This document shows, piece by piece, positions 52,728 to 62,958 of a stretch of DNA of 64,000 nt. Origin of the DNA: Candidatus Altimarinota bacterium (GTDB lineage: Bacteria > Patescibacteriota > Gracilibacteria > BD1-5 > UBA6164); the NCBI GenBank assembly GCA_943356435.1, contig CALREY010000004.1, positions 62,001-126,000 of the forward strand. The letters are read 5' to 3'. Position numbers and translations under genes: made by a program. Positions within the stretch are counted from its first letter, which is position 1, and every line of letters begins with the position of its first letter. The notes under the pieces are model-generated. The model saw only the letters and a program-made list of their open reading frames with translations, did not search any database and had not been told where the DNA came from.

Positions 52728-54920
52728 ATGAAAATAGATGTAAGGAATTTTGTGTATGAGAATATTACACCATTTACTTGAGACAGTAGTTTTCTAGTTT
52801 GACCAACGCCAAAAACTAAAAAACTATGGGAAAAATGCATGGAGTTATTGAAAAAAGAGAGGTTGAATAATGGTTTACTAGATGTAGATAATGAAACTAT
52901 TTCTACTATTACAAGCCATAAACCTGGATATATTATAGAAGACTTGGAAGAAATAGTAGGTCTTCAAACTGATGCAGCTCTCAAGAGATCTATTAAACCT
53001 TTTGGTTGAGTTAGAGTGGTGGAATGAGCATTAAAAGAAAAATGATTTGAATTACCAGCAAGAGTTAATGATATTTTTAACTATGCTCAAAATCATAATG
53101 ATGCGGTTTTTAGTGTTTACGATGATGAATCTAGATTGTATAGATCAAATCATATAATTACTGGTTTACCAGATAATTATGCTAGATGAAGAATTATCTG
53201 AGATTATAGAAGATTGGCTTTATATTGAGTAGATGCTTTAATAGAAGCAAAAAAAGAAGATTATAAAACTATTAGCGATCCACTAGACGATGAAAAAATC
53301 AGAAAAAGAGAAGAAATAAGCAAACAAATATGAGCATTAAATGAAATCAAAAAAATGGCAAGCAGTTATGGATATGATGTATCACTTCCAGCAAATAATG
53401 CAAAAGAAGCTGTACAATGGGTGTATTTCGCATACCTATCAGCTATAAAAGAACAAGATTGAGCAGCTATGAGTCTATGAAATGTATCTAGTTTCCTAGA
53501 TATTTATATAGAAGCAGACTTGAAATCAGGATTAATAACAGAAGAAAAAGCTCAAGAATATATAGACCATTTCGTTATGAAATTGAGATTGGTTAGACAT
53601 TTGAGACCTGGAGCATATGATGATATATTTGGTTGAGACCCTACTTGGGTAACCGAATCTATCTGAGGTATGTGGAAAGACGGAAAAACAAAAGTAACTA
53701 AAACATCGTTTAGATTTTTACAAACATTGTACAATCTATGACCTAGTCCAGAACCAAACTTAACAGTATTATGGTCAGAAAATTTACCAGAATGATTCAA
53801 AGAATTTTGTGCAAAAGTATCAATAGATACATCAAGTGTACAATATGAAAATGATGATGTAATGGTACCTTGTAGATGAAGTGATGATTATGGAATAGCT
53901 TGTTGTGTATCTTATCAAGAAATATGAAAGAGAATTCAACATTTTGGTGCTAGATGTAATTGACCAAAAGCTCTACTTTTAGCTATAAATGAATGAAGAG
54001 AAGAAGCACACGGAAAACAAATAATTAATAAAGATTCAATAAAAAATATTAGTTCAGATATTCTTAGCTACGATGAAGTTTATAAGAATTTCAAAACAGC
54101 ATTAAGTGAAGTAGCTAGAGTATATGCTAAAACTATGTATTGTATTCACTACATGCATGATAAATACTATTATGAAAGAGCACAAATGGCTTTTGTAGAC
54201 AGTGATTATGGTGTAGATATTGCTTATGGATTAGCTTGAATTGCTATCATAGCTGATAGTTTATCTGCTATAAAATACGCTAAAGTGCAAGCTATTAGAA
54301 ATGAATTATGAATAGCAACAGATTTCAAGATAGAATGAGAGTACCCTAAATATGGTAATGATGATGATAGAGTAGATAATATAGCAAAAGAAGTAACAGA
54401 ATATTTCTTCAATGAATTAGTAAAATACAAAGCATATAAAAATGCAAATCCAACTCTTTCACTACTTACAATTACTTCAAATGTAATGTACTGAAGCAAT
54501 ACATGAGCAACTCCAGATGGTAGAAAATCAGGTGAAGCATTTGCTCCATGAGCAAATCCAATGCATGGAAGAGACCACAACTGAGCTATAGCATCGCTAA
54601 ATTCAGTATCAAAACTAGATTATAAATATGCTCAAGACGGTATTAGTAATACCTTTTCAATTGTGCCTACAGCATTATGAATAGATGAAACAGAAAGAGT
54701 AGAAAACCTAGTATGATTGATGCAATGATATTTCAAAAAAAGAGCACATCATTTGAATGTAAATGTAATGAACAGAGAAATGTTAATAGATGCATACAAT
54801 AATCCTGAAAAATACCCTCAATTAACTATAAGAGTTTCAGGATATGCAGTAATATTTAACAGATTATCAAAAGCACATCAAAAAGAAGTAATAGAAAGAA
54901 CATTTCATGAGAAAATGTAA
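52728..54920 (+). CDS. pflB: Pyruvate formate-lyase (formate C-acetyltransferase)
   Basis: 730 residues, slightly shorter than E. coli PflB (760). The active-site pair Cys392-Cys393 lies in GIACCVSY and the glycyl-radical site Gly705 in [12 protein letters not shown] near the C-terminus. It splits pyruvate with CoA into acetyl-CoA and formate without oxygen. The radical Gly is GGA, not TGA. First gene of an operon with focA, pflA and an acetyl-CoA synthetase. An ATG at 52685 opens only a 10-codon frame (MNTWGICIIS), perhaps chance. I ruled out anaerobic ribonucleotide reductase because of the CC pair and PFL-specific ends. Confidence 0.96.
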
Positions 54921-54946
54921 AAAATTTAAAACAATAAAAACAAACT

Positions 54947-55765
54947 ATGGATAATTTTTATTCACAAAAAGAAACTTTTGAGAAATTGGTAGATATATGA
55001 GAAAGAAAAGCAAATAAAAAATTGATTGATGTATTAATACTTGGTTTTTTAGCCGGAGCTTATATATGATTTGGATGACAAGTAGCTACAGTAGTAGCAA
55101 CTGGAACTAGTGATCTAATGTGATTCTGAGTAACAAAGATGCTTATGTGATGAGTATTTAGTATAGCTTTGATGTTGGTTATTATAGATTGAGCAGAATT
55201 ATTTACTGGTAATCATTTGATGATTAAGGCTAAAATGAAATGAAGAATTTCATGGAATAGTATGTTCAAAAACTGGTGAATTGTGTATGTTACAAATTTT
55301 ATCTGAGCATTATTTGTAGCTATATTGATTTATTATGCTTGACTTTGGACTCTGTCAGGTGACCATTTATGAATAACAGCATTAAAAATAGCAAATGATA
55401 AAGTAAATATTGATTTCACTGCTGCATTTATTAGATGAATACTATGTAACTGGCTTGTGTGTTTAGCAATATATATTGCTATTTCATCTAAAGATATAGT
55501 ATGAAAAATATTTGGTATATTCTTCCCTATTATGACATTTGTAGCTTGTTCATTTGAGCATAGTATTGCAAATATGTTTTTTATACCAATGGGATTATTA
55601 TTAAAAAATCAGACAGCATTAGTAGCTAGTAGCTGACTTGATCTAACAAATCTGACTTGGTATCATTTCTTTTATTCGAACTTATTACCAGTAACATTGT
55701 GAAATATAATATGATGAGCTGTATTTGTATGATTCTTGTATTACTTAGTAAATAGAAAAAATTAG
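54947..55765 (+). CDS. focA: Formate channel FocA
   Basis: 272 residues, six predicted membrane helices. FNT-family marks are visible: [24 protein letters not shown] and [14 protein letters not shown] (the central His). It releases the formate made by PflB or imports it as pH falls. It lies 26 bp after pflB and 20 bp before pflA. Many membrane-helix glycines are TGA. Stop TAG. Confidence 0.94.
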
Positions 55766-55785
55766 TAGATAAAAATATATATTTT

Positions 55786-56514
55786 ATGTTAAAAATCCAT
55801 TCAATAGAAACATTTTGAGCACACGAATGACCTGGAATCAGGACTGTGTTCTTTTTGCAATGATGTCAATTCAAATGTTTGTATTGTCATAATCCTGATA
55901 CTATTTCAATGAAATGATGAACTGAAATGTCTGATGAAGAGTTACTAAAAATAGTAGAAAACAACAAAATATATTTCGGAAAAAAGGGTTGAGTAACAGC
56001 TTCCGGATGAGAACCAACTCTTCAAGCAAAATGACTAACTTCACTATTTAAAAAATTGAAAAATAGTTGAATAAATACTACTCTAGATACAAATTGATTT
56101 GTATTAAATGAAGATGTAGCAGAATTATTGAAATATACAGATTTAGTACTTCTGGATATCAAGCATATTGATGATAAAAAACATAAAACATTAACATGAC
56201 AAAGTAATAAAAAAACTCTTATTTTCCTAGATTATTTAGAAAAAAATAATATTAAATTTTGGATTAGACATGTGCTGGTTCCTGAATATACTGACAATGA
56301 GGAAGATATAGAAAAATTATGAAAATATTTACAAAAATATAAAAATCTAGAAAGATTAGAGATTCTACCATACCATACTCTGTGAGTATTCAAGTGGAAA
56401 GAATTAAAAATGAAATATGGATTAGAAGGAATAGAACAACCAAATAGAGAAAGTATAGAAAAAACTGTGAATATTTTGAAAAAATATATAAAAAATGTGT
56501 ATGTAAGGGGCTAA
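55786..56514 (+). CDS. pflA: Pyruvate formate-lyase activating enzyme
   Basis: 242 residues. Radical SAM motif CxxxCxxC as Cys27, Cys31, Cys34 in GCQFKCLYCHNPDT, preceded by HSIETFGAHEGPGIRTVFF, nearly the family consensus. GGVTASGGEPTLQ and LDIKHID follow. It uses S-adenosylmethionine and a 4Fe-4S cluster to install the glycyl radical on PflB. Length and motifs are standard. Confidence 0.96.
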
Positions 56515-56560
56515 AAAATCCCCCAATCCCCAGCCTTTCCCCCCAAGGTGGAAAGGAGTA
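56515..56560. repeat. Palindromic element in the pfl operon (left of pair)
   Basis: ATCCCCCAATCCCCAGCC then TTTCCCCCCAAGGTGGAAAGG. Begins right at the pflA stop codon. Confidence 0.8.
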
Positions 56561-56600
56561 GAACAATATTTAATTAAATATTGTTAATATATATTTTGAG

Positions 56601-56645
56601 CTATCCCCTTTCTCCCCTGGGAGGAAAGGGGTAGGGATAGGGGGA
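56601..56645. repeat. Palindromic element in the pfl operon (right of pair)
   Basis: CCCCTTTCTCCCCTGGGAGG then AAAGGGGTAGGGATAGGGGG. It is an inverted relative of the element at 56515, so the pair can form a larger hairpin between pflA and the next gene. Confidence 0.8.
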
Positions 56646-56668
56646 TAAATTAATTCTAAAAACAATAA

Positions 56669-58744
56669 ATGAAAAACAACTTTTTTGATATAAATTCTGT
56701 TGCAATAATATGAGCATCAGAGGCAGCGTGAAAAATATGAAATGATTTACTTAAAAATCTAAAAAATTTCAAATGAAAAAAAATGTGAGTCAATCCTAAA
56801 TGATGACATTTCGAGGATATTACATTTTATGAAAGTATAGAAAAACTACCTTTTATTCCAGATATAGCTGTAATAACTATTCCTGCTAAATTGGTATTAG
56901 ATTCTCTAGAAGAGTGTGGTAAAAAATGAATAAAAAGAGTGATAATTATCTCTGCAGGATTCAAAGAAACTGGAAATGTAGAGTGAGAAGAAGCTATTAT
57001 ATCAATAGCTAAAAAATATGATATGAGAGTATTAGGACCTAACTGTTTAGGTTATATAGATGCACATAAAAATCTAAATCTATCATTTGGTTGAAAAGAA
57101 ATAAATCCATGAAACATAGCCATGATATCTCAGAGTGGAGCCATGGCAGTAGCTCTAACAGATTGGGCAAGTACTATGAATCTGTGATTTTCAAAGATTA
57201 TTTCTATGTGAAATAAATCTGATTTAAATGAAAATGATTTGCTAGAAAACTTGATAGATGATGACAAAACTGATGTGATAGTCGTATATCTAGAAAGTTT
57301 AGAAAATGGTAGAGAATTCTACAATATTACAAAAAAACTTACAAAGAAAAAACCAATTATCCTAGTAAAATCAGGTTTATCTAGTAGAGGTCAAGCAGCA
57401 GCTAGTAGTCATACTGGTGCATTATCATGAGAAAACAAAGTACTAGAAACTGCATTTCGTGATGCAGGAATACATACTACAACGGCACTAGAAGATTTCT
57501 TTTTATGGGCACAAGCATTTTCAAAAAGTGTATGAAAAGATATTCCAGAAAGTTTAGCAATAATCACAAATGCAGGTGGTCCATGAGTGATGGCAACTGA
57601 TCATTGTGAATACAATAATGTAATATTAAAAGATTTTTCAGTAGAACAACAAGCAATATTGAAAACAAATATGCCTGATGCATCAAGTATGAAAAATCCT
57701 ATAGATATTATAGGAGATGCGACTTCAGTGAGATACAAAGATATATTGGAAAATATAGTTAAATTGGATGAAAATGTAGGTATATTATTGTTATTGACAC
57801 CTCAAACTACTACAGATGTAGAAAATATAGCTGGAACTATAATAGATTTCGAAAAACAATATCCAGAATATTATCTAATGGCATCATTTATGTGAGCTAA
57901 ATCAGTCGATTGAGCTAGAAGATTTTTGAGACAAAATGATGTAATAGAATATGATTATCCAAAAAAATGAATCAGAGCATTTTGAGACCTAGTTAAACAA
58001 AAAAAATGGCAAAAAATACCAGTACAGCAAGAAGTAGAAATAATAAAAATAGATGAAAATAAAAAACTAGAAATAGAAACAGAATTACAAAAACAAGAAA
58101 AATTATGTAACTACGAAATAGTTTCAAAGATATTCAAAGCTTATGATGTAGCATTTTTAGAAGATAAATTAGCAAATAGTATAGAAGATGTAGAAAAGAT
58201 ATTTGATGATGCTAAAAACAAATTAGTAGCAAAAATAGCTAGTAAAGATATAGCTCACAAGACTGATTGTGGTTGAGTAGTAGTATGATTGGCTACGAAA
58301 AAAGATGCTATCGATGCTTTTGAATGAATATTAAAAAGTGTGAAATCATTTCATCCAGATGCTCAAATAGACGGAGTAACTTTTCAAGAAATGTTACCTA
58401 AATCAAAAGAAATATTTATATGAATGAAAAGAGATTCTAGTTTCTGAGATTTACTTATTATAGGTATGTGATGAATATTTGTAAATATCTATGAAGATGT
58501 ATACATGAAACTTTCTCCAGTTGGCAAAACTGAAATCAGAGAAATGTTTAGTCACCTGAAATGATATCCAATATTAAATTGAGCTAGATGAGATACTCCT
58601 ATTGATTTCGATAGTTTAGTAGATATTATATTCAAGATTATGTCTATTTTTAGTACATTTAAAGATATTAAAGAAATAGATATAAATCCCGTATTTTCAA
58701 ATGAAAGTGATAGTATAATAGTAGATGCAAAATTTTATTTATAA
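56669..58744 (+). CDS. Acetyl-CoA synthetase (ADP-forming), fused alpha-beta
   Basis: 691 residues. The N-terminal CoA-binding domain starts VAIIGASEAAGKIGNDLL; SQSGAMAVALTDWA and the phospho-His loop SSHTGALSG (His248) follow. The C-terminal ATP-grasp half has KIASKDIAHKTDCGGVVVGL and EIDINPVF. It turns acetyl-CoA, ADP and phosphate into acetate, CoA and ATP. Together with PflB it gives one ATP per pyruvate without acetate kinase, which fits a reduced fermentative metabolism. Several conserved glycines are TGA. A pair of palindromic elements separates it from pflA. Confidence 0.93.
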
Positions 58745-58745
58745 T

Positions 58746-58785
58746 AAAAAAGGAATGTTTTCTTCAAAACATTCCTTTTATTTTT
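58746..58785. terminator. Terminator after the acetyl-CoA synthetase gene
   Basis: AAAAGGAATGTTTT pairs with AAAACATTCCTTTT, followed by ATTTTT. It separates the native operon from the foreign-looking block. Confidence 0.9.
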
Positions 58786-58806
58786 CTCCTTTTTTGAATT
58801 TTGTTT

Positions 58807-59520
58807 TTATTTAAAAAGTGAAAATGTAGAGAAATCTACATCATCACCATAAGGTGGTTGACCAAAAGCTTCCACCCACATTTTTCCTTTGCCTAGTACG
58901 GTGTTTATTTGCCTACCAGAATTTAGTAAACTAGGATTTACTCTTGGGTCAAACTGTTCCATTTCTACACTTAAGAATGGGTAAAAATTATTTATTCCCA
59001 AATCTTTAGCAACATTGTTTCCTCTATCTGCCAAGCAAATTACACTATTGACAAGATCAGGAAGCAAAGCTACTACTTCATGTATGGTAGTTCCTTGATT
59101 TACAATATCTTCAACGATGATGAACTCATCAGCCATAACAAAAAGTGGATTCAATTTTTCAGGTATGAAATGTTTACCATTAGAATTCAACTCTGTCCTA
59201 GCGGTAATAAACTTGATTTTTGGAAACAAAGCATGTAAATAAAATGCTACGGTAGGTGGATACGAAATCGCACCATATGCTGGTCCAATAATCAGAACAT
59301 TTTTAGTATCAGATTTGAAACTCAAACCATTATCCAAAGCATTTTGAGTCATACCACATAAACAATTACTTACTACATTAGCACCTAATGGTGCCAAAGC
59401 CTCTTTGTTTATGTAAGCATTACCTATAAAGCCAGACTTATAGACATAAATATCGTCAGTGGCAATTACAGCATTATCTGCCAATATTTGCTTAAATGTT
59501 TTTAAATTATATACTTCCAC
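58807..59520 (-). CDS. pyrE: Orotate phosphoribosyltransferase
   Basis: 237 residues, somewhat longer than the family norm (~210). The PRPP loop is VEDIVNQGTTIHEV; earlier, VLIIGPAYGAISYPPTVAFY fits the orotate-binding region of type I phosphoribosyltransferases. It starts with GTG behind a strong SD (GGGAGGTATTAAGTG). No in-frame TGA, all glycines GGN, stop TAA. It would make OMP from orotate, and pyrF follows the reaction; 15 bp separate the genes. Assignment leans on that context. Looks imported from a standard-code donor. Confidence 0.82.
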   Translation of the reverse strand: MEVYNLKTFKQILADNAVIATDDIYVYKSGFIGNAYINKEALAPLGANVVSNCLCGMTQNALDNGLSFKSDTKNVLIIGPAYGAISYPPTVAFYLHALFPKIKFITARTELNSNGKHFIPEKLNPLFVMADEFIIVEDIVNQGTTIHEVVALLPDLVNSVICLADRGNNVAKDLGINNFYPFLSVEMEQFDPRVNPSLLNSGRQINTVLGKGKMWVEAFGQPPYGDDVDFSTFSLFK

Positions 59521-59535
59521 TTAATACCTCCCAAA

Positions 59536-60273
59536 TTACATTACAGATTGAATTAAATCATTAATTTTTCTAACAGCATGCAATTGCCCCGTTGCATCCA
59601 ATCCTTCATAAATCGGACGACCAATGACTTGCAGTGTAGATCCAGCTTTGTAGGCAAAATCTGGAGTAGCAATTCGTTTTTGATCACCTGCATCACCGCC
59701 AGGTAAACGTATACCAGGTGTAACATAGATGAAATTTTCAGGTAAATTTGGTTTCAAATATTCCAAATCTAATGCACTACATACAATACCATCCATCCCT
59801 GCGTTTACTGCATCTAAAGCCAATTTCAAAACTTGTCCTTTTTCAGCATTCATACTTGTCAGTATAGTAACCGCTATTATTTTAGGTCTTGGTATTCCCA
59901 ATTTCTGAGATGTTTCTTCGGCACCTTGCAGTGCAGCTTTCATCATCTCAATTTGCCCGGTAGCATGTACATTAAAAATGTTTACACCTGGTTTACTCGC
60001 TAATACCCTTGAAGCATTTTTGATTGTTTCAGGAATATCAAAAATCTTTAAATCCAAAAATATCTTGAGACCATAACTATTTAACAGCTTGAAAACATCA
60101 AAATGACCATAGCTAGAAAAAAACAACTCCATACCAAATTTGGCATAACCAATATTAGTAAATATAGTGTTCAACCTAGTCCTTAATTCCAACTCCAATT
60201 TAGCAGGATCTGTAGCTAAGTCAAATCCATCCAAAGCAGCACAAACATAATCTTTTGCCAATTTTTCACTCAT
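59536..60273 (-). CDS. pyrF: Orotidine 5'-phosphate decarboxylase
   Basis: 245 residues. AALDGFDLATD, then KIFLDLKIFDIPETIKNA (the DxKxxDI catalytic motif), VNIFNVHATG, and FIYVTPGIRLPGGDAGDQKR with QVIGRPIYEG near the end. It turns OMP into UMP. Start: MSEKLAKDY has a clear SD (GGGAGTGTTAAAATG); upstream in-frame codons overlap a terminator and were rejected. No TGA in frame, unlike native genes. It is transcribed before pyrE, 15 bp apart. Confidence 0.93.
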   Translation of the reverse strand: MSEKLAKDYVCAALDGFDLATDPAKLELELRTRLNTIFTNIGYAKFGMELFFSSYGHFDVFKLLNSYGLKIFLDLKIFDIPETIKNASRVLASKPGVNIFNVHATGQIEMMKAALQGAEETSQKLGIPRPKIIAVTILTSMNAEKGQVLKLALDAVNAGMDGIVCSALDLEYLKPNLPENFIYVTPGIRLPGGDAGDQKRIATPDFAYKAGSTLQVIGRPIYEGLDATGQLHAVRKINDLIQSVM

Positions 60274-60373
60274 TTTAACACTCCCATTATAACAAAAAAA
60301 ATATATAAAAAATTTGCAAATACAATATAAAAGAAAAATAGTAATTGTCAATTGAAGTTTTTTGATAAAATTT

Positions 60374-60401
60374 AAGGACCCATTTTTTAAATGGGTCCTT
60401 T
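60374..60401 (-). terminator. Terminator between the His-rich gene and pyrF
   Basis: AAGGACCCATTT pairs with AAATGGGTCCTT, just after the TAA at 60404 on the minus strand. Confidence 0.85.
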
Positions 60402-60403
60402 GT

Positions 60404-60961
60404 TTAATGCTTATCCTTCTCATGCATAAAGTCTTTTAGACTAGTATTAGAAGGATCTACTACTGTTTCTGGCTTAACATCTACATGTTCTGCTTCAGAT
60501 TGTTTATCTCCATGTTCAGTTTTATTATCTGTATCATGTGATGTACCGTGATCTGAAGAATGTTCAGTACCATGTTCTGCACCATGTCCTGCAGCATGAG
60601 AAGTATGACCTCCATGCCCTATGATATTCTCTACAATCTCATAAGCTACATGCACTGAAATTATCGAGCTATTTAATCCAAGGAAAATAAAAACAACCTT
60701 GAGAAAAGTTTTTTTGCTTTTGTATTCATCATACTCTATAAAATTCATATGATACTTGAACTTGTACAAAGCATACATAAAAACAATTATGCCCATTGCA
60801 GGCAAAGATAGAATCAGGAACAATTCTATGTATGCATCTTGGTGGAACTCCATTAGAGTAATTTCCATTGCGAGAAATAACAAGTAAATCAGAGTAATTT
60901 TTGTATGATTTTTGAATAAATCACTAAACACCATTAGCAAAAATTTTAATATTTGAATCAT
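60404..60961 (-). CDS. Membrane protein with histidine-rich tail
   Basis: 185 residues. Three to four membrane helices in the first ~120 residues, then a tail with about 15 His in 60 residues (GHGGHTSHAAGHGAEHGTEH), ending DFMHEKDKH. The tail may bind Zn, Ni or Cu. Strong SD (GGAGGATCTAAATG). No in-frame TGA. It is in the same block as pyrE-pyrF. Family not recognised. Confidence 0.72.
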   Translation of the reverse strand: MIQILKFLLMVFSDLFKNHTKITLIYLLFLAMEITLMEFHQDAYIELFLILSLPAMGIIVFMYALYKFKYHMNFIEYDEYKSKKTFLKVVFIFLGLNSSIISVHVAYEIVENIIGHGGHTSHAAGHGAEHGTEHSSDHGTSHDTDNKTEHGDKQSEAEHVDVKPETVVDPSNTSLKDFMHEKDKH

Positions 60962-61067
60962 TTAGATCCTCCATTTTGTTTTTGTTTCAGTTGCGGGATT
61001 ATAAAATTAAATATCAATAAGTCAATTTAATTAATAATTTATTTGCAATTTTGTCTGTTTTCAATAT

Positions 61068-61736
61068 TTAAAATCCTAATAATCCTAATTGCCAAATAAG
61101 CAATAAAAATACTGAAGAAACAGAAATAACTAATATTTTTTGAGTTTTCCAATAATGTGCTATCTGTTTGTATTTCCATATAAATAGTACAATAGGAATA
61201 GAAATATAAAGAAGAACATCATAACCTATAGAATCAATCAAATGAAAGATAGGTTCTATTAAAAAATTCATCACAAATGCAATAAGGATAAATATAGCTT
61301 CATAACGAAAAAAATCTTTCCACTCAATCGAAAATTCTCTTTTATATTTCAAAGTCATATAAATAAGAGAATAAATTGAATTAATTAATAAAAACAATAT
61401 CAATCCATGTAAAAAATGAATTTCTTCTTCAAGCATTTCAAACAATTCTGCAAATACCAATACAATTGCTACAAGCAAATTTGAAAAAGTGCCAATTGTG
61501 AGAAAGATTTGAAAAAATCTTTTGTACTTATCCATTACAACTATTGGTTTAAAATAATCCCAAATAGATAAAAATACGGACAAGGTTAAAACCAATTCAA
61601 GTTCTACTTGATCATGGAAATAATGTTGCAATCCAATTAAATCAAATATATTGTGCATAAATTGTGTGATTAAACCTAACATTACGAATAATTTACACAT
61701 TCCAAAACACATTACTCTAAAATTTCTAAATAACAT
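61068..61736 (-). CDS. Multi-pass membrane protein
   Basis: 222 residues with six or seven predicted membrane helices (VELELVLTLSVFLSIW, FLTIGTFSNLLVAIVLVFAE, FLHGLILFLLINSIYSLIYM) and few charged loops. SD CCGGAGATTATTTTATG. No in-frame TGA; three or more Trp are TGG. First gene of the foreign-looking block in transcription order, 106 bp before the His-rich gene. No family recognised. Confidence 0.7.
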   Translation of the reverse strand: MLFRNFRVMCFGMCKLFVMLGLITQFMHNIFDLIGLQHYFHDQVELELVLTLSVFLSIWDYFKPIVVMDKYKRFFQIFLTIGTFSNLLVAIVLVFAELFEMLEEEIHFLHGLILFLLINSIYSLIYMTLKYKREFSIEWKDFFRYEAIFILIAFVMNFLIEPIFHLIDSIGYDVLLYISIPIVLFIWKYKQIAHYWKTQKILVISVSSVFLLLIWQLGLLGF

Positions 61737-62055
61737 AAAATAATCTCCGGAAATTGTTTATAAAAATTATTTATATCTATTCTAGTAATAAAATATATAT
61801 AAATAATTTCCTATTGTTTGTTTTTGTTTTTCATTTTCATCTATAGATAAAAACTAAACTATATATTCTATGATTTTATAAAAAATGTCAAGTCGGATTT
61901 TAATGTATTTTTTAAGTACTTTTTAAATAGTTTTTATAAAAAAAAATAATAATTTAAAACTTAATTTTGACATTTTAAAATATAATTTGATTATTTTCAC
62001 TAAAAGATTAAAATTCACCAGTATTTTTAAATACTCTTATTCTTTAATTAAAGAA
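61737..62055. other. Intergenic region between divergent genes
   Basis: AT-rich stretch with no gene, repeat element or clear hairpin. TTGACA at 61967-61972 and GATTAT at 61989-61994 (16 bp apart) could drive the plus-strand ATP-grasp gene. It marks the right edge of the TGA-free block. Confidence 0.5.
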
Positions 62056-62958
62056 ATGATGAAAATTTGGATATTAGATAAAGAAAAAAGCAAAGAATCA
62101 AACTGAATAAAAAAACTGCTAGAAGAATGATTGAATAAATGATTAAATATAGAGTTTGTAGCAGTTGAAGACATAGAATTGGTTATCAATGCTGAATTAG
62201 ATGAAAAACTATTTATAAAAAATCAAAAAGTAAAACTTCCTGATATAGTAATACCTAGAATGGATAATTCATATCAAATAAAATCTATAATAGATTTTAT
62301 GGAAAATCAAGGTATAAATATAATCAACTCAAATAAATCTAGATTACTTGCTAATGATAAATTTTTATCACTACAAAAACTAGCAGCAAATAGAATCCCA
62401 GTACCGAAAACAATGCTATTAAAATGAATACCAAGTATAGAATTCGTAGAAAAACAATTAAGTTATCCAATAATAATTAAAAAACTTGATTGACATGCTG
62501 GTAAATGAATAATAAAAGTAAACAATAATCAAGAATTGGAAGATATTCTAGAAATGCTTGAAGAAAGTTTATCTAGACTAAATAACAATCTAATAGTTCA
62601 AGAATATATCTGAGAAAAAGCAGGTCAAGATTTGAGAATATTTTTAGTATGAGGTAGAATAGTGTGATCTATGCTAAGAAAAGGTAAAGAATGAGATTTC
62701 AAAGCAAATTTTTCATGAGGATGATCTGTATATGCTCACGAATTGAATGAAACAGAAGAGATTTTGGCAGTAGAAGCTGCAAATATTATATGACTAGACA
62801 TAGCATGAGTAGACTTACTATTTGATAAAGATAGTGGTTACAAAATATGTGAAGTAAATGCATCTCCAGGCTGGAAAGGTTTAGAACAAGCAACAGGAGT
62901 GAATATAGCAGGTGAAATCATCAATTATATAGTGAGAAGATATAATATAAATGTGTAG
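62056..62958 (+). CDS. RimK-like ATP-grasp ligase
   Basis: 300 residues starting MMKIWILDKEKSKESN. ATP-grasp signs: NDKFLSLQKLAANRIPVPKT, PIIIKKLDGHAGKGI, VQEYIGEKAGQDLRIFLVGG, FSGGGSVYAHEL and ICEVNASPGWKGLEQATG. This is the RimK/glutathione-synthetase-like group that adds glutamate or a related amino acid to a protein or cofactor (for example ribosomal protein S6 or F420). Substrate unknown. A second ATG follows at once; either can start. Confidence 0.88.

Follow-up and report, generated by a model that had tools for sequence, protein, structure and literature searches.

A pyrF-pyrE cassette of standard-code origin from which UGA has stayed absent in a genus of Gracilibacteria that reads UGA as glycine

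The window analysed here, 64,000 nucleotides long (positions 62001-126000 of contig C4, CALREY010000004.1, in the 1.55 Mb draft genome G000 of a Candidatus Altimarinota bacterium, GCA_943356435.1), carries a block of four adjacent genes without a single in-frame TGA: pyrF, a pyrE-like gene and two genes encoding the membrane proteins M1 and M2. UGA is read as glycine in G000, and TGA is the main glycine codon of the window genes outside the block (869 TGA vs 356 GGN, i.e. 71% TGA), whereas the 889 codons of the four block genes include 54 glycine codons that are all GGN (Fisher p = 1.7e-28). We found that the evidence supports a standard-code origin of the block genes, that pyrF and pyrE occupy the same site in three species of the genus, and that UGA is excluded or repeatedly purged from these and other foreign genes. 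On balance we lean, with some reserve, towards the reading that pyrF-pyrE is a foreign cassette, inherited vertically and kept free of UGA by purifying selection in place.

The block and the genetic code of the genome

Over 1.39 Mb of G000 the share of TGA among glycine codons is ~70%. That UGA is read as glycine (code 25) follows from the presence of a tRNA-Gly(UCA) at L107:6364-6442, which carries the G1:C72, C2:G71 and G3:C70 pairs and the U73 described as identity elements for this code (PMC8629427), together with the lack of a match to release factor 2 above the prfB cut-off; each of eight genomes (G000 and seven relatives) has one release-factor match, which lies below it. The four block genes all end in TAA. 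The genes that enclose the block are rich in TGA: an ADP-forming acyl-CoA synthetase-like gene (acs; 56669-58744, plus strand) has 30 in-frame TGA codons and a gene encoding a RimK-like ATP-grasp ligase (61987-62958, plus strand) has 14.

Another finding was that the block is part of a larger class. TGA-free genes make up 27 of the 1011 genes with at least six glycines in the same 1.39 Mb, and about 30 genes of G000 share a signature of no internal TGA, Shine-Dalgarno (SD) sites and foreign codon usage. This foreign class includes pyrC, pyrD, pyrE, pyrF, ilvC, thrC, asd, purC, purM, a DapD-like gene and an 18 kb stretch on contig C3. Its arginine codons are CGN in 37% of cases vs 4% in native genes, and the codon shifts of the foreign core match those of the other TGA-free genes (r = 0.96). 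An SD site precedes 21 of 30 TGA-free genes vs 4 of the 869 genes with at least two TGA codons; native upstream regions are no richer in SD than shuffled sequence, which also holds for the relatives examined. The few TGAs that do lie within foreign reading frames stand at the old end of a gene or before the true start, e.g. in the gene at C3:51867, which in G000 and likewise in G072, a second genome of the genus, has a TGA immediately before a terminator hairpin. The original prediction, made from the letters of the window, had described a UGA=glycine genome in which TGA-rich genes surround four genes that write all glycines as GGN and that have strong SD sequences of a kind mostly lacking in native genes, and all of this was borne out.

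Several members of the class deserve a separate remark. The 18 kb stretch (G000:C3:51867-70448; L122 11867 to L123 10448) is made up of TGA-free genes with foreign codons and encodes secreted proteins, a lipoprotein, an ABC transporter-like protein and a radical SAM protein; a TGA at C3:55496 divides the radical SAM gene from a second open reading frame (ORF), and code 25 would fuse both. IlvC (L176:1498-2985 and L177:1498-2985), TGA-free in G000 and G072, belongs to the plant/Streptomyces class II type; it shares 58% identity with a Streptomyces plasmid copy and has plant enzymes as its best PDB matches. A tRNA-Arg(GCG) is found at L145:1303-1380, though native genes almost never use CGN. CGA and CGG account for several percent of the arginines in foreign genes, and the meaning of these two codons varies in related lineages (PMC8629427).

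Foreign origin and repeated capture

In a PyrF tree of 25 sequences all 12 TGA-rich copies of the family fall into one clade (100/100), while the five TGA-free copies group with standard-code bacteria, apart from the TGA-rich ones, a conflict with family descent that indicates horizontal transfer. The copies of G000, G072 and G170 form one clade that follows the species order and has a deep branch to itself; the G273 and G102 copies are placed near Proteobacteria. The standard-code origin of the block genes is supported by this tree, the foreign codon usage, the SD sites and the old TGA stops inside the frames of sister genes, in agreement with the transfer that was originally predicted. The PyrF phylogeny, proposed at that time as a way to the donor, gave a foreign placement among standard-code bacteria and did not reach the donor lineage. 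Neither viral contigs, phages and plasmids nor 380 phylum members and the 84,980 genomes covered by a pattern scan yielded a donor. The viral contigs were searched with PyrE, PyrF, IlvC and M2, and plasmids or phages with three of these proteins (PyrE, PyrF and IlvC) and with the DNA of the block; no close relative appeared in either case. PyrF resembles bacterial PyrF (PF00215; E. coli, Listeria, Proteus) in being of the common orotidine monophosphate (OMP) decarboxylase type, with 40-45% identity, and differs in that the clade of this genus branches deeply alone, with no close donor known.

G273 (L028:2605-4011) and G102 (L029:5656-7042), which represent two further genera of the family, have adjacent TGA-free pyrE-pyrF pairs of their own, and AGGAGG precedes pyrE in both and pyrF in G273. 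These pairs lie at other sites, with their PyrF near Proteobacteria in the tree, and code-25 cells have thus captured pyrE-pyrF more than once.

An older cassette and a local addition

Our sample of the genus consisted of five genomes (G000, G072 (JAUXPL010000024.1), G170, G222 and G288), all genomes compared being draft assemblies and the comparisons with G072 and G170 resting on parts of their genomes. The original prediction had suggested looking for the block in other Gracilibacteria, and this was informative: pyrF-pyrE lies between the acs-like and RimK-like genes, with homologous flanks, in G000, G072 and G170, and G222 has an empty site in which the two flanking genes are adjacent with nothing between them. 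In the incomplete genome G288 no RimK match was found. Among the three carriers, all with TGA-free pyrF and pyrE, the SD, the promoter region and the 3' junction can be aligned or are equivalent, and PyrF of the window shares 85% identity with one of the other two copies and 57% with the other. Neither M1 nor M2 lies between pyrF and rimK in G072 or G170, and no homolog of M2 was found in 47 other family genomes.

The block consists of two parts, an older pyrF-pyrE cassette that is a separate transcription unit present in three species, and a local addition of M1 and M2. Of the earlier proposal that the four genes were one acquisition, foreign acquisition stands and unity does not, with pyrF-pyrE common to three species and M1/M2 present only in G000. 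Because three species, with PyrF proteins 57-85% identical, have pyrF-pyrE in one and the same position between homologous flanks, its insertion predates the splits of these species, and the idea that it was acquired recently was not borne out. Long vertical descent within code-25 lineages, which had been named as an observation that would speak against transfer, applies within the genus and fails at the level of the family. A chimeric assembly or a binning error at the block is highly improbable: every genome is a draft, but three genomes, assembled separately and diverged in sequence, have the same junctions and the site is empty in a fourth, on which grounds an assembly join was rejected.

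Exclusion of UGA over time

Shared sites are not limited to the window. For each of pyrFE, pyrCD, ilvC, thrC and a gene encoding 904 amino acids, two or three species agree in the position and have homologous flanks. Between G000 and G072 none of 145 conserved glycines in the foreign genes is written TGA and 50 of the 145 have changed among GGN codons, while at conserved glycines in 267 native gene pairs the probability of TGA in one genome given GGN in the other is 0.25-0.34; for G000 and G170 the foreign count is 0 of 71 and the native value 0.42-0.46 (the exchange counts assume independent sites, which is not fully true, and no shared gene or species departs from this direction). For TGA exchange in foreign genes the upper 95% bound is 2%. 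With a third of the glycines changed within GGN and none to TGA, vs a native exchange of ~30%, UGA is excluded or repeatedly purged from the foreign genes. Loss of TGA as a one-way process throughout the genome was considered and rejected, as native genes often gain TGA (63 single-gain patterns in 47 gene triples). In pyrD and thrC of G072 codon usage has become nearly native (lambda 0.17-0.18), yet TGA is found at 0 of 54 glycines.

These numbers bear on the simplest explanation, that of a single recent transfer with too little time to gain TGA. It would fit the donor-like codon usage and the SD sites and probably applies to genes restricted to G000, e.g. M1/M2 and the C3 island; as an account of the class it is improbable, since pyrFE, pyrCD, ilvC and thrC have common sites and flanks in different species, and turnover at their glycine codons has produced no TGA.

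High expression alone, with translational selection removing UGA, is another process that does seem to act in this genome. The S-layer-like protein (G000:C5:64266-67673), EF-Tu (C5:41412-42608) and EF-G (C17:3533-5677) genes are strongly TGA-poor and GGT-rich (TGA at 5 of 40 glycines in EF-Tu and 4 of 89 in the S-layer-like protein), which looks like translational selection against UGA acting on native genes with high expression. The pyrFE promoter is near consensus and an SD is present, as such an explanation would have it. However, the highly expressed low-TGA genes (EF-Tu, EF-G, ribosomal proteins, S-layer-like) have native codons and no SD, and between their codon shifts and those of the foreign genes the correlation is negative (r = -0.38). 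The lowest-TGA native genes still exchange 5.8%, a rate at which 0 of 145 has p = 2e-4. We regard expression level as a sole cause about as improbable as recent transfer.

The alternative that has to be taken most seriously is recurrent replacement in place, in which, after the first insertion, the resident copies were overwritten time and again by homologous recombination, the DNA coming from a standard-code host or prey that has these genes too. It would account jointly for the absence of TGA, the SD sites and the foreign codon usage, and type IV pili, which are expressed by Gracilibacteria and can aid DNA uptake (PMC11452946), could help. In its favour and against selection in place, the foreign proteins are more diverged than their native neighbours and than most native proteins (56-85% identity vs a native median of 87%; thrC is 63% identical vs 83-95% for its flanks), and the synonymous divergence of ilvC is patchy, which fits recombination (11% of native genes are patchy too). 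Excess synonymous divergence as such was not accepted as proof of replacement, since less biased codon usage alone raises it. Further points weigh against purifying selection in place. TGA-rich pyr genes without SD occur in other family members, which indicates that pyr enzymes can carry UGA, so the notion that these enzymes must avoid it was rejected. The 16S rRNA, from which an anti-SD might have been read, was not found in any of four genomes of the genus, so that functional use of the SD sites is putative. The PyrE-like protein scores 22.0 bits against TIGR00336, below the equivalog cut-off of 106.8. We also know of no mechanism that would tolerate UGA in native genes but not in the foreign class.

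Replacement, for its part, would require that five or more loci were recently overwritten in two or three species despite a DNA divergence of 20-40%, yet PyrF of the three species is still in species order, pyrD and thrC of G072 have ameliorated codons that imply long residence without any TGA, and no donor turned up in the phages, plasmids, scanned genomes or sampled phylum members. We consider replacement possible and on the whole rather unlikely. Since the PyrF tree is species-ordered, the flanks are conserved, the SD is kept in diverged leaders and G072 genes are ameliorated, purifying selection in place on a UGA-free class with SD-led translation appears somewhat more likely than repeated replacement.

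Under the preferred reading of vertical inheritance with selection in place, the donor would have been a bacterium that used the standard code, had moderately AT-rich codons and relied on SD sites for translation. The pyrF-pyrE cassette, which brought a promoter, SD sites and a terminator of its own, would have entered between acs and rimK in a single event; four sampled species have this site, and the insertion would date to an ancestor of three of them, with vertical descent from there. M1 and M2 may have come separately into the G000 lineage or have been lost in the others. UGA would then be kept out by something other than lack of time, with glycine codons moving freely within GGN and never to TGA, and SD sites would persist in the foreign class where native genes are without any. 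Candidate causes are that UGA is decoded poorly when the cell requires these enzymes, or that the genes still pass through standard-code cells. More tentatively, the genus may keep a vertically inherited, standard-code-compatible and SD-led gene class from which selection removes UGA nearly as stringently as it would a nonsense codon; if so, recoding would be a lasting divide between genes inside one genome.

Enzymes and pathway

PyrF is securely identified from sequence as a putative OMP decarboxylase, with scores of 134.7 bits for PF00215 (cut-off 27) and 125.6 for TIGR01740 (cut-off 92.3) and OMP decarboxylases as its solved relatives. The PyrE-like protein has a type I phosphoribosyltransferase core with the motif IIVEDIVNQGTT, and a fold search with a modest model led to generic phosphoribosyltransferases. 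Orotate is its likely substrate, because the gene is paired with pyrF and because pyrC and pyrD, both TGA-free, are present at another locus of G000. PyrE would convert orotate to OMP and PyrF OMP to uridine monophosphate (UMP), and the UMP may be made from scavenged orotate, dihydroorotate or carbamoyl-aspartate. The UMP synthesis from orotate that had been predicted is thus retained for the PyrE-like and PyrF steps; the pathway is incomplete, with pyrC and pyrD elsewhere and no aspartate carbamoyltransferase (PyrB) found in the four genus members searched. PyrB is present in the family relatives G174 and G024.

In TGA-rich relatives examined within the family the pyr genes are TGA-rich too, with PyrB alongside in the two genomes tested, and PyrF is often fused ahead of PyrE in a protein of ~470 amino acids (L030:7436-8854, L032, L033 and others), which resembles UMP synthase with the order reversed.

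Relation to known systems

A persistent, TGA-free, SD-led class of chromosomal genes was not described in the literature that we could search, a coverage that leaves out most subscription journals. Vampirococcus lugosii is likewise a code-25 bacterium of the candidate phyla radiation that gained genes from distant bacteria, with 126 horizontally transferred genes, and recoding has been proposed in that context as a shield against foreign DNA or a barrier to exchange; the sections of that report available to us mention no UGA-free SD-led genes that persist across species (PMC8080830). Code-11-compatible phages of Gracilibacteria and Absconditabacteria (PMC10746230) are also without in-frame TGA, readable in both codes and tied to code-25 cells, but those are phages, whereas here chromosomal metabolic genes at fixed sites are concerned and the block has no phage gene. 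Nucleotide synthesis genes are known from Gracilibacteria, for instance from one with most genes for de novo pyrimidine and purine synthesis, for which the parts of the article at hand describe no TGA-free set (PMC6851277).

A reassigned codon offers a clean marker of foreign genes, independent of the usual composition arguments, and at the same time a clock for becoming native. Third positions turn native in some foreign genes while the recoded codon stays out entirely, which makes it testable whether a changed genetic code remains a barrier long after a gene has crossed. The class also suggests that a reduced and probably host-dependent lineage patched its nucleotide and amino-acid synthesis with foreign genes.

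Features of the locus

All block genes lie on the minus strand. Downstream of pyrE a bidirectional terminator hairpin (58748-58779), homologous in G072 and equivalent in G170, separates the cassette from acs, whose orthologs flank the site in G072, G170 and G222. The pyrE-like gene (58807-59520, 237 amino acids, GTG start; no TGA among 16 glycine codons, with TGA-free orthologs in G072 and G170) is preceded by the SD GGGAGG (59527-59532), and pyrF (59536-60273, 245 amino acids; PF00215 E = 6e-39; no TGA among 20 glycine codons) by GGGAG (60281-60285). An SD is likewise found before pyrF in G072 (AAGGAG) and G170 (GGAGG) despite differing leaders. The true ATG of pyrF is at 60273; a longer ORF reaches 60423 and has no support upstream of 60273. 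A candidate promoter of pyrFE, TTGACA-16-TATATT (11/12), lies at 60324-60351, and TTGACT-16-TATGCT/TATACT can be read at the equivalent place in G072/G170.

M1 (60404-60961, 185 amino acids; no TGA among 10 glycine codons) is a membrane protein with a His-rich C-terminal tail and matches no Pfam family over cut-off. Its gene has the SD GGAGG (60968-60972), a candidate promoter (60998-61025) and a 3' terminator hairpin (60374-60400), all read on the minus strand. M2 (61068-61736, 222 amino acids; no TGA among 8 glycine codons), with the SD GGAG at 61745-61748, is a predicted polytopic all-helical membrane protein, the structure model of which was too uncertain for use (pLDDT 53). These four SD sequences, read directly, are the strong sites that had been noted originally. 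On the other side of the cassette acs ends a native run (52728-58744) of fermentative, ATP-yielding function that is conserved in the genus and includes pyruvate formate-lyase, a formate channel and the pyruvate formate-lyase activase.

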